From Belliella alkalica (GTDB lineage Bacteria > Bacteroidota > Bacteroidia > Cytophagales > Cyclobacteriaceae), in contig NZ_JAKZGO010000004.1 of the NCBI RefSeq assembly GCF_022549785.1, positions 49,603-113,602 on the forward strand: DNA of 64,000 bases, written 5' to 3'. The stretch's first letter is position 1. Each line of letters starts with the position of its first letter. Below are positions 33,957-58,469 of this stretch, in pieces. The notes beneath the pieces were generated by a model, which was not told the origin of the DNA, searched no databases, and worked only from the letters and a program-made list of their open reading frames with translations. The position numbers and the translations under genes are program-made.

Positions 33957-36900
33957 ATGAAGATCCTTCTTTTTGTATGGGGTTTCATTGCTTTTTCCAT
34001 ACTAGGCTGTAGTTTTTTCAAACAAGCCGAAACTTTTGCTCAAAATCAGGATTTTGAAAGCAACTTTAGTATAGTAAATCATCCTGATGAATTTTTGCCA
34101 TTATGGTCTGCCAATGAGATCAGAAGTACTGCTTCTAGGGTTTTCCAAGCTAATCTTGAGGGAAGAAACAGTTCACGTGCTTTGGCTGTACAGCCGATTG
34201 GGAGTTTTGACGGGCTTATTTATACCAAGATCAATCTTAAGGATTTGGAGGAGCCAAAAATAGCATTTTTTGCAAAAACCAACCAAAATGGTTCAGGAAA
34301 TAGACCTGTGATAGTTTTTGTTTCCTTTTCCCTAGATCAAATACAATATTCTGAAGCCATTCAAATTGGGAATGATGATACTTTTAGCAATCAGCAGACG
34401 GAATACAACCTTTATGAAATATTGATTCCAGATCAATTTTGGAATGATGAGAGTGTCTATTTGAAGTTTGAAGTAAAATTTGGTCAAGGATCAGGATCTG
34501 CAGCAAGGTTTTTTATGGATGATTTTGGCGTTTTTTCTGGAGATGAACAAGTGGATCCCATTCAGGTTAAAGAGACCTTGATCTTAGATCCACATAGGGT
34601 GAAAATTAATTTTGATAGAGAAATTCAGGTTTTTGACAAAGCCATAGCAAGTCTTCAAGGGTTGGAAATATTGTCAATAGATTTTCCAGATGATTCTTCG
34701 GCGATTATCCATACCGCCTCTGAGATTCCAAGTCAAGTTTTACAACTTTCATTGGAAAATATTCTTGAAAAGAATGGGGCTTTGACGGAAGAAATTAATG
34801 TATCGATCGACAACACAAAAATCCAAATTGGAGAAATCATCATTGAAAATCCCAACTCGCTACTCATTAGATTCAGCCAAAATTACTTGAGTTCAGATGT
34901 GAGTCAGACATCAAAGTTTTTGGTAAACGGCGCAAATCCTTCAAATATTTCCTTTTATGAAGATGGATTTAGTATAAAGCTAAGCTTAACCAGTGTGCTT
35001 TCTCTCAGCAAAAAGGTGAAGATCGAAACACAGGCTTTTCAAAACTTAAATCAAGAGCTTGGACTTTCCCAAATCCGTGAATTTGTTTATGAAGATGAGA
35101 TTGAGAGCTTATTTGCAAAAGATCAAAATTGGATTTCCATAGTCAATTTTCAGGAATTGAATTTTGAGTCATTTGATTTTAATGATTTTTCGATAATTGA
35201 CGGAGAAATTATTTTTTCCGAATGGAACATTTCTGGTGATGGAAAAGTCTTTGACTTGTTGTCGAATAACCCATTTGATGAAGGGATCACATATACCCTA
35301 CGTATTCCTCCAAGGAAAACAATTCGAGGGAAACAGTTGAATGGATCATTTAGGGATTTTGTGTGGGATGCAACTCCTCCAGAAGTAGTACGTGTGGATG
35401 GAATAGGGTCCAGAGAATTACTACTTATATTTTCTGAGGCTGTTGATCCTATTTTTGCGACGATTCTTAGCTATTACAAAATCAATGGAAGAGAACCTAT
35501 TGAAGCACATTTCCAAGGGAATGGAAGTTCGATAATTCTTAAGTGGGACTTTGATTTTGAACAGAATCAAACATATATTTTGGAGGTTGAAGGAGTGGTG
35601 GATTTTGCAGGAAATGTAATTGATAAAACTGATTTTGATTTTACTTTTGAATCTCCTAAGAAGTTAGCTTTCAAAAATCTAATCATCAATGAAGTCATGC
35701 CAGCCCCACGCGCTGGAAACTCTTTGCCAAATGTCGAATATATAGAAATCTACAATCCAAGTTTAGATCCAATCGCTTTGGGTGGTTTTCAATTGGCCAA
35801 TTCAAGGAGGACTACAACACTTCCTCCAGAAGTAATTCTACCTGACCAATATATTATTCTTTGTCCGAGAACTCAAGTTAATCAATTTACCAGGTTTGGG
35901 AGTGTAATCGGTTTAACTAACTGGCCCACATTATTGAATTCGGCAGATCAAGTCAAATTGTATGACAATGACGGGATAATTATAGACAGTTTGAATTATA
36001 CCACTGCCAACTTTGGTGGTAGTTCTTTTGCTTCTGGCGGTTATAGTTTGGAAATTGTAAATCCTTTTATAAAATGTAATTTGAGCAGCAATTTGAAGAC
36101 ATCTATTGCAGCTGAAAGGGGCACACCTGGGAGAATTAATTCAGTATTTGACGAGACTCCCGATAGAAGTAGTCCAGTTTTATTGAAAACAAGTGTGCTT
36201 TCAGCAAATCAAATACTTATGATTTTTTCCAAAAGCTTAAGCTCTGATTTGTCAAATTTGAATTTTGAAATAAACCCTAATCTCACAATCAATAGAATCG
36301 AATTGGGTGATAAACAAGAGTCATTGATGCTGACCTTTGATCAAACCATCCAAGAAGGAACCCAATACACAATAACTGTAAAAGACTTACGTGATTGTAT
36401 AGGAAATTTGATCAAGGATGGTGAAAATGAAGCTTTTTTTACAATCCCATCTTTGGCAGTTTCAGGTGATGTTATAATCAATGAAGTGTTGTTCAATGCA
36501 AATACGGGAGGCCCAAAATTCGTAGAAGTTTATAACCATTCCGATAAGTTTATAAATTTGAAAGATTGGAAATTGGCGAATTTGAACACTTCCAATGAGA
36601 TAGCCAACAGGCGAATCGTTTCAAGTGAAGATTTGATTATAGAGCCAAAAAGTTATCTAGTATTTACCACAGATAAGGATAGGCTAAGCTCTGACTATCC
36701 TAAAGGAGTGAAGGCTAATTTTGCATTGGTCAATACACTTCCAAGTTATCCACAGTCATCAGGGAATGTCGTTTGGCTTGATCCAAAAGAGGATATCGTA
36801 GAGATTTTCTCCTACTCTGAAAGAATGCATCATAGATTGTTGAAAGAAGTTAGGGGAGTATCACTAGAGCGCTTGTCGGCATTAGAGCTTGTGGAAAACC

Positions 36901-49382: not shown

Positions 49383-49667
49383 ATGGGAGAGAAAAAATGT
49401 CCCCACTGTGGGAATTGGTCCAAATGGACAACAGATGTAAATGATATTTGCGAACATTGTGGAAAGCCACTTGGCGGTCGTGATTTGGAATACAAAGAGC
49501 AGCGGGATCGTGACACAAAAGCCAATGAAGAGCAGTGGATTTTTTATATTAAAGAGACTGACAGTGAATTCGTAAAAGGCATGAAAAAAGTAGGAAACTT
49601 CTTTTACACCATTTACATGGCGATCATTACATTTTTGGCTTGGGTGATAGCTGCGCTTCCTGGTTGA
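49383..49667 (+). CDS. Zinc-ribbon small membrane protein, unknown
   Basis: 94 residues. The N-terminal C-P-H-C-G ... C-E-H-C-G zinc ribbon lies at about residues 6-27, followed by a charged linker and one C-terminal transmembrane helix (about 70-92). Such proteins are usually unannotated; a structural or regulatory membrane role is possible. The stop codon overlaps the next start (TGATG), so the pair is co-translated. Confidence 0.75.
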   Translation: MGEKKCPHCGNWSKWTTDVNDICEHCGKPLGGRDLEYKEQRDRDTKANEEQWIFYIKETDSEFVKGMKKVGNFFYTIYMAIITFLAWVIAALPG

Positions 49668-51786: not shown

Positions 51787-52038
51787 ATGGAAAAGATCGT
51801 AGTTCAAACTAAAGATAAATCAAAGCTTGATCTAGTAAAATCAATGCTTGAAGCTATGCGTATTGACTTTAAAGTAGTCACGGATCATGTTTTAAATGAA
51901 AATCCTTCACCAAGTGGAGATCCGTATTTTGATAACCCAAAAAATATTGAAAACATACTCGAAGGAGTAAAGCAATTGCAATCTGGGGAGGTTGTTAAAT
52001 TGAGCAAAGATAAACGCAAAAAAATGCTAGGCTTGTGA
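51787..52038 (+). CDS. Antitoxin partner of the YoeB-type toxin (DUF2683-like)
   Basis: 83 residues: an N-terminal beta-alpha segment (K-I-V-V-Q-T-K-D-K-S-K-L) and a helical, charged C-terminus, the usual layout of small antitoxins in Bacteroidota. The stop overlaps the toxin start (GTGA), and the antitoxin is encoded first, as in most type II modules. The role, neutralising the toxin and repressing the operon, is inferred from position. Confidence 0.75.
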   Translation: MEKIVVQTKDKSKLDLVKSMLEAMRIDFKVVTDHVLNENPSPSGDPYFDNPKNIENILEGVKQLQSGEVVKLSKDKRKKMLGL

Positions 52039-52304
52039 GTTTTGAAATCACCTTTACTAAGATTGCCGAAAAAGATCTCTTGAGGCATAAAAATTCTGGA
52101 AATAAAAAGCTCATCAGAAAGCTTGATCAATTATTAGACGAACTTGAAGAACATCCTGAGACTGGTACAGGCAAACCAGAAAGATTGAAGAATAATCTTT
52201 CTGGTTTGTGGTCAAGAAGAATAAATCATGAACATCGTCTTGTTTATTCTATTGATGGTAAAAAAGTTATAGTCACTGTAATTTCAGCTTATGGACATTA
52301 TTAA
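52035..52304 (+). CDS. Txe/YoeB-family mRNA interferase toxin
   Basis: 89 residues with a GTG start at 52035. The family blocks are seen: D-L-x-x-H-K-x-S-G-N-K-K-L near 16-28, G-T-G-K-P-E-R-L-K near 56, L-W-S-R-R-I-N-H-E-H-R-L-V-Y near 70, and the C-terminal G-H-Y with the catalytic His and Tyr. YoeB relatives bind the ribosomal A site and cut mRNA during translation. All expected key residues appear intact. Confidence 0.9.
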   Translation: MSFEITFTKIAEKDLLRHKNSGNKKLIRKLDQLLDELEEHPETGTGKPERLKNNLSGLWSRRINHEHRLVYSIDGKKVIVTVISAYGHY

Positions 52305-58039: not shown

Positions 58040-58240
58040 TTATTAATATTCTTTATTTGAGCTTTATTTAACAAGGAGCATTTATAAACAAAAGAATAAG
58101 ATTGAATTCAAAATTTTATTCTTTTTCGGACTCAATTTTAAGTACTATATGAACTACGAACTAGGGTCAATTTTGTTTGACCATTCATAAAAAACATCTA
58201 AAAAACGCTGGATTCGACTAAGTAGAAAAGCAAGTGTTTT

Positions 58241-58399
58241 TTATCCACATTTTGCATAAGTTATCCACATGTGATTAATCAAACATTATAACAATTTGAT
58301 TATAAGCAATTTATGTGATTTTAAGAAAAGTTAATTTTGTGGATAATATACTGTAAATGAGATTATTAAAAATAAAAAAGAAAATTTCACGGTGGATAA
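58241..58399. other. Candidate replication origin: clustered DnaA boxes in AT-rich DNA
   Basis: Perfect DnaA boxes TTATCCACA at 58241-58249 and 58261-58269 (exactly 20 bp apart), a perfect box in the other orientation (TGTGGATAA) at 58338-58346, and a one-mismatch box (GGTGGATAA) at 58391-58399. The two pairs face each other across an AT-rich stretch (58275-58335) that could be the unwinding element. The whole 430-nt region has no gene. One isolated TTATCCACA elsewhere in the window lies inside a coding region near 36.75 kb. Confidence 0.65.
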
Positions 58400-58469
58400 A
58401 TATCAAAACAGAATAATATTTTATTGTGAGATTGTAAGCGCTTGGGCTGTTTTTATATATAATAGAAAG

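Follow-up and report, generated by a model that had tools for sequence, protein, structure and literature searches.

The cluster of DnaA boxes in an intergenic gap of Belliella alkalica, which had originally been put forward as a credible chromosomal origin, is probably (we would say roughly 60%) a non-coding, origin-linked DnaA control locus of the datA-like kind and not the origin, a reading based on analogy with Escherichia coli. The boxes stand at near-rigid spacing around an IHF-consensus site, are conserved throughout the family Cyclobacteriaceae irrespective of the flanking genes, and lie near the probable oriC but apart from it. By anatomy and position, the element appears most like E. 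coli datA, and we infer that it binds DnaA, that its DNA is bent, and that its effect is inactivation of DnaA rather than reactivation.

DnaA boxes and an IHF-consensus site in the intergenic gap

The window (the whole 64-kb stretch of DNA that was analysed) corresponds to positions 49603–113602 of contig C29 of the B. alkalica genome (G000; 4.95 Mb in 105 contigs). Three perfect DnaA boxes and one single-mismatch box had been reported within 160 bp, and all four were present among the following features (window coordinates).

58040–58469, no strand: AT-rich intergenic gap of 430 nt that holds the element
58232–58401, forward: whole conserved element, the 170-bp span of sequence model R1 (match at C29:107834–108003, E 4.5e-24)
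58241–58249, forward: DnaA box 1 (slot 0), perfect TTATCCACA
58251–58259, forward: middle slot (+10), degenerate in the window and a third tandem box in many relatives
58261–58269, forward: DnaA box 2 (slot 20), perfect TTATCCACA
58289–58301, forward: IHF-consensus site TAACAATTTGATT between the facing boxes, a perfect match to TAAnnnnTTGATW
58338–58346, reverse: DnaA box 3 (slot 97), perfect TTATCCACA
58351–58368, forward: conserved block CTGTAAATGAG-TT-TTA beside box 3, from alignment A1
58391–58399, reverse: DnaA box 4 (slot 150), TTATCCACC with one mismatch

The gap has a G+C content of 24%, compared with 37% for the window, and contains no ORF of at least 60 aa, in agreement with the earlier description of the 430-nt region as non-coding. 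The window holds four perfect boxes, the only one outside the element being at 36746–36754 (+). The number expected per 64 kb was 0.81 from dinucleotide shuffles and 0.79 from base composition, which bears out the earlier estimate of about one or fewer by chance, and four were reached in 2 of 100 dinucleotide shuffles. The box total for the whole window is only mildly unusual; the clustering is far beyond chance. There were 102 perfect boxes in the 4.95-Mb genome (41 matches for the reversed control pattern), and the Poisson expectation calculated from these 102 for three perfect boxes within 106 bp anywhere in the genome was 2.4e-4.

The IHF consensus was taken from an excerpt of PMC10950094, and the scan was run with the complementary sequence, the last base being relaxed slightly. 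Since perfect IHF-consensus sites occurred at eight further places in the window, it is the conservation of the site and not the lone match that carries weight. A site within one mismatch of the consensus was found in 25 of 27 aligned spacers between facing boxes (perfect in 11), while mononucleotide shuffles of these spacers gave a mean of 6.05 matching spacers and a maximum of 13.

Conservation and neighbouring genes of the element

A lack of conservation in close relatives would have counted against the original proposal, but the boxes are strongly conserved: the region was matched as DNA in all eight genomes of the genus, B. alkalica included, and model R1 matched 173 of 196 family genomes (E ≤ 0.01), no more than 27 of which had contributed training sequences. 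No R1 match was found at this threshold in the other 23. The R1 score comes mostly from the boxes, and many matches were weaker than the training ones and covered R1 in part. Deeper searches of ten genomes gave one strong R1 place in each, the remaining matches being the same place on the opposite strand or at least five orders weaker; the second-best match in the B. alkalica genome reached only E 0.07. A second place, about five or more orders weaker, was seen in G043, G147, and G415 of the family and in G220 and G235 outside it. When the search was widened to the order, R1 matched 84 of 291 genomes (E ≤ 1e-4), including 43 from outside the family, and some of the places found in this search could be oriC itself.

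Perfect box pairs 8–14 nt apart occurred in 86 of the 196 family genomes (one genome for the reversed control pattern), and the gap was 11 nt in most of the pairs listed. Belliella kenyensis, which was reached via rbfA, likewise has the three perfect boxes, spaced as in B. alkalica. As a guide to the element, rbfA synteny was dropped, as only this Belliella locus among 80 rbfA loci had three perfect boxes.

An alignment of 27 members showed boxes at offsets 0 (+), often 10 (+), 20 (+), approximately 97 (−), and approximately 150 (−), with an AT-rich spacer. The members had been selected on boxes 0, 20, and 97 (≤3 mismatches in sum), and the conservation of these three is therefore partly due to selection: box 0 was perfect in 27/27, and boxes 20 and 97 (the latter at offset 96–98) each had at most one mismatch in 27/27. 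The IHF site, middle box, 150 box, and conserved block played no part in the selection. With up to two mismatches allowed, the middle box was found in 16/27 members, where tandem triplets at 10-bp steps were seen, and the 150 box in 18/27; the core motif of the block followed the 97 box in 18/27. Five duplicates and five poorly fitting loci (L091, L099, L100, L109, and L112) were left out of the alignment. The block at 58351–58368 can be read as an imperfect inverted repeat in some relatives.

In the window, the element is located beside thioredoxin-type genes. These are absent from G004, G005, and G006, where the next gene is oxygenase-like (labelled by eye), and other neighbours of the element include a CLC channel and FUR (L219), a transglycosylase (L246), and GH3 and MazG (L114). 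Because the neighbours differ between relatives, the element is not tied to one gene. Both thioredoxin-type genes are missing or remnants in some genus members that retain the element (G001, G002, G004, G005, and G006; L085, L083, L084, L087, and L086).

The probable origin near mnmG and its distance from the element

The GC3 skew switches near the element, but with an offset to either side, which is explained by the finding that parS maps away from the element. On contig C29 of B. alkalica, the skew was distinctly positive on the right-hand side of the element and mixed on the left. With parS patterns (≤1 mismatch), all ten genomes searched gave a single tight cluster of 2–4 sites at a distance from the element, and G121 had an additional site. 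One chance site also appeared in 5/10 genomes with the reversed control, and the evidence is therefore the clustering, together with a perfect site in 9/10.

Nine single-contig relatives were used for composition counts in 20-kb windows, omitting those that hold the element or the mnmG/parS locus. Between the two places, 25 of 29 windows agreed with mnmG/parS as the origin and 4 with the element; among all 111 windows, 99 agreed with mnmG/parS and 77 with the element. Windows from one genome are not independent; by genome, 8/9 favoured mnmG/parS, with a tie in G119 (1 to 1) and with three of ten windows opposite in G002. The almost skewless G146 was retained, and the counts for G035 were centred on its R1 site (5528 kb), the pair at 5717 kb being due to chance. 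Thus, the sampled GC-skew windows place the switch elsewhere than at the element, where a chromosomal origin would have its skew minimum.

The probable true oriC, judged from its sequence features, is a 503-bp gap near mnmG in C3:88501–97500 (L288, local positions 2443–2946) that contains many degenerate DnaA boxes. It lies between mnmG and a gene for an AMP-binding enzyme, with parS 4.6 kb from the gap. In G002 and G091, an intergenic gap with many degenerate boxes is likewise found downstream of mnmG, approximately 5 kb from parS, flanked by lipoprotein-like and acyl-CoA-synthetase-like genes. A DnaA box directly precedes AATCCACACCTTAATA and AT-rich DNA in all three genomes (TTATCCACA in G002, TTACCCACA in G091, and TTATCAACA in B. 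alkalica). This core pattern was found in 19 of 196 family genomes (≤3 mismatches) with zero control matches. At the same threshold, it was absent from G102, G119, G121, G035, and G146, in which the origin was placed by parS and composition alone. The core of the C3 type appears to resemble the Bacillus subtilis unwinding module. The architecture of the B. subtilis module is described in an excerpt of PMC8287927. A clear unwinding-type module is present at the mnmG locus; the element was inspected for one by eye only. The G002 gap contains a spurious 64-aa ORF, owing to which it was classed as coding in a tiled survey of box clusters. Excerpts of the Cytophaga hutchinsonii literature mention oriC plasmids, indicating that fragments carrying the origin are already used in other Cytophagales.

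The expectation that the origin in this group lies apart from dnaA holds true, but for the mnmG locus: in the seven genomes measured, dnaA was 0.76–1.43 Mb from the oriC core or parS. The element was 260, 123, 129, and 83 kb from the oriC core in G002, G053, G192, and G091, respectively, and 269, 232, 322, 262, and 354 kb from parS in G102, G119, G121, G035, and G146. In G002, the element is at 0.80 Mb and mnmG/parS at about 1.06 Mb. In 9/9 single-contig relatives, the distance to the oriC core or parS was thus 83–354 kb, or 1.4–8.5% of the chromosome (88–354 kb when measured to parS throughout). The chance value for such nearness is approximately 1e-7, with the limit set post hoc and nine kin genomes (two of one genus) treated as independent. 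Draft genomes with both places on one contig gave 54–242 kb (G172, G150, G056, G116, G004, and G006), a range that draft contigs bias low. In the remaining genomes with an oriC core, the element is on another contig, as in B. alkalica (C29 for the element and C3 for the probable oriC), or R1 has no match (G105).

Comparison with E. coli loci and alternative explanations

In content, the element is of the datA type, with roughly four DnaA boxes plus a single IHF site in ~190 bp. Like E. coli datA, it is a short intergenic element with several boxes and a single IHF-consensus site; an excerpt of PMC10380432 gives the minimal datA region as 187 bp with one IHF site and four boxes. In the same scan, datA showed a perfect box, an IHF site, also perfect, that lies 65 bp past it, and additional boxes after that. 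Both are also near oriC: datA is at 467 kb, or 10% of the chromosome, and the element at 1.4–8.5% in the nine relatives. The datA–oriC distance is conserved in 59 E. coli genomes according to an extract of PMC4585315, and the excerpt of PMC10380432 postulates IHF-dependent looping and reports moderately reduced function when datA is moved far from oriC. The differences are that box spacing and orientation are not those of datA, the element having facing groups; that datA is flanked by a tRNA operon and the element by protein-coding genes (protein-coding neighbours being the only ones considered); and that the element occurs in another phylum, in a host with one HU/IHF-family match. Because spacing and orientation differ, the HU/IHF match is single, and ATP hydrolysis enters by analogy, we do not class the element as datA.

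The B. alkalica genome has a single HU/IHF-family match, which could be of the HU or the IHF type; with one match only, a classical IHF heterodimer is unlikely. The DnaA protein ends in the motif GGRDHSTV, which counts in favour of the datA-like reading. An Hda protein is expected to match the Bac_DnaA model, and since this model had only one match in the genome, no Hda-type protein was seen.

In a datA-like control locus, DnaA would occupy the reversed boxes and the tandem high-affinity boxes, of which there are two here and often three in relatives, and a bending protein of the HU/IHF family on the consensus site would bring both groups of DnaA together by folding. Once folded, the complex may reduce how much DnaA is competent for initiation, by sequestering it, by stimulating hydrolysis of the ATP that it carries, as E. 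coli datA does, or both. Because the element is close to oriC, it would be copied soon after initiation, and its dose would double at the time when re-initiation must be blocked.

The claim that the element is oriC, with the mnmG/parS locus serving only as a centromere with some DnaA boxes, is now very unlikely. Dense perfect boxes in AT-rich intergenic DNA do resemble a bacterial oriC, the layout shared across the family, in which an IHF site separates boxes, recalls that of E. coli oriC, and the element was the sole intergenic box cluster at the threshold used in the tiled 760–1020 kb of G002. The element nevertheless lies away from the composition switch, parS, and origin genes such as mnmG, which also adjoins E. 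coli oriC; the composition counts, both between the two places and overall, favour the other locus; and it is there that a DnaA box is followed by AATCCACACCTTAATA and an AT-rich stretch, amid degenerate boxes. The element was rejected as oriC after the composition switch proved to be offset in several relatives, as explained by the parS mapping. A DARS-like function, in which DnaA-ADP would exchange its nucleotide on the element before initiation, is unlikely, if less so. DARS1 and DARS2 are also non-coding DnaA-box loci away from oriC, and an excerpt of PMC10380432 describes DnaA boxes together with IHF sites in DARS2; only two weak boxes were found in the DARS2 stretch scanned at our threshold. 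The core boxes of DARS1 face each other closely in the same scan (14 and 12 bp apart), whereas the nearest facing boxes of the element are separated by 77 bp, and both DARS loci are farther from oriC than the element is (17.5 min for DARS1 and 64 min for DARS2 vs 84.6 min for oriC, in an extract of PMC4585315).

A site that sequesters DnaA or tethers it within the origin domain, for plain titration or chromosome architecture and without catalysing a nucleotide change, would be in keeping with the box enrichment inside genes that surrounds the element in several relatives. We consider this rather unlikely as the explanation of the element itself, as its near-rigid spacing, conserved IHF site, and conserved extra block exceed the needs of titration. 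Least credible, to the point of being hardly tenable, is a role as an operator or promoter through which DnaA would control the thioredoxin or membrane-protein genes on either side: in the window, a thioredoxin-type gene does lie downstream of the element, but the element is retained beside different genes elsewhere, and an operator was ruled out on the grounds of these changing neighbours. Of the original suggestion of a DnaA-titrating or regulatory site, the general class thus stands as the best one, and the link to the flanking redox genes, without which the element persists, does not.

An unexpected further observation was that perfect boxes are also enriched within genes close to the origin. 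In G002, 51 of 115 perfect boxes (39 matches for the reversed control pattern) were within 400 kb of the oriC core, i.e. in approximately 19% of the chromosome. Stretches of 20 kb with at least five boxes were found near the origin in G119, G053, G192, G102, and G091; the sampled windows of G121 and G146 had none. Box-dense stretches were located at 865–876, 964–976, and 1187–1194 kb of G002 C1 (L159, L163, and L168) and on C28 and C73 of B. alkalica (L174, L175, and L176). Ribosomal or rRNA genes were ruled out by Pfam, which identified five of six box-rich genes as photolyase, fucosidase, TonB receptor, symporter, and glycosyltransferase, the sixth having weaker glycosidase matches. The boxes occupy several reading frames of unrelated genes. 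Between the two species G002 and B. alkalica, 17 of 23 in-gene boxes in alignable parts were identical, whereas identity was seen for 13% of the comparable 9-mers and for 78 of the 545 9-mers that are anagrams of the box. The figure for the boxes is inflated by the choice of stretches that are box-rich in these genomes. In G119 and G102, which belong to other genera, the same genes hold boxes, mostly at other codons, and two photolyase boxes were common to all three genomes compared. Such turnover near the origin fits selection for DnaA titration, and the conserved in-gene boxes suggest a titration zone. Origin-proximal DnaA-box clusters are also found in B. subtilis. In E. coli, boxes accumulate near oriC according to an excerpt of PMC12371093. 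The element differs from this origin-proximal titration in being one ordered module, the diffuse boxes seen here lying inside genes.

To our knowledge, DnaA-switching loci have been described mainly from E. coli and its near relatives. In Bacteroidota, a DnaA-box/IHF-site module that is ordered, found across a family, and kept at a few percent of the chromosome from the origin would add a second case that can be tested independently, and no Hda-type protein was seen in the genome concerned. Among the matches listed in a search of the open literature, which is no proof of absence, no title concerned a datA-type locus in Bacteroidota or the oriC of Cyclobacteriaceae. It is conceivable, and we offer this tentatively, that initiation in an entire family of Bacteroidota is controlled by a folding element of the datA type, which either emerged outside the enteric bacteria or has survived there, in a host without a visible Hda-type protein and with one HU/IHF-family protein. 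A zone of several hundred kb in which genes with selected DnaA boxes act as an initiator sponge would then back up the element. Searches by box density may mislead in this group, since the densest cluster of perfect boxes in this genome apparently lies away from the origin.

Two small overlapping genes at 51787–52304 of the window have, by eye, the look of a toxin-antitoxin pair of the YoeB/RelE type. On C1 of G002, ten matches of identical score (240–252 aa) to the DnaA family model were found; at a guess, they probably represent helper genes of the IstB type that belong to a repeated insertion sequence.
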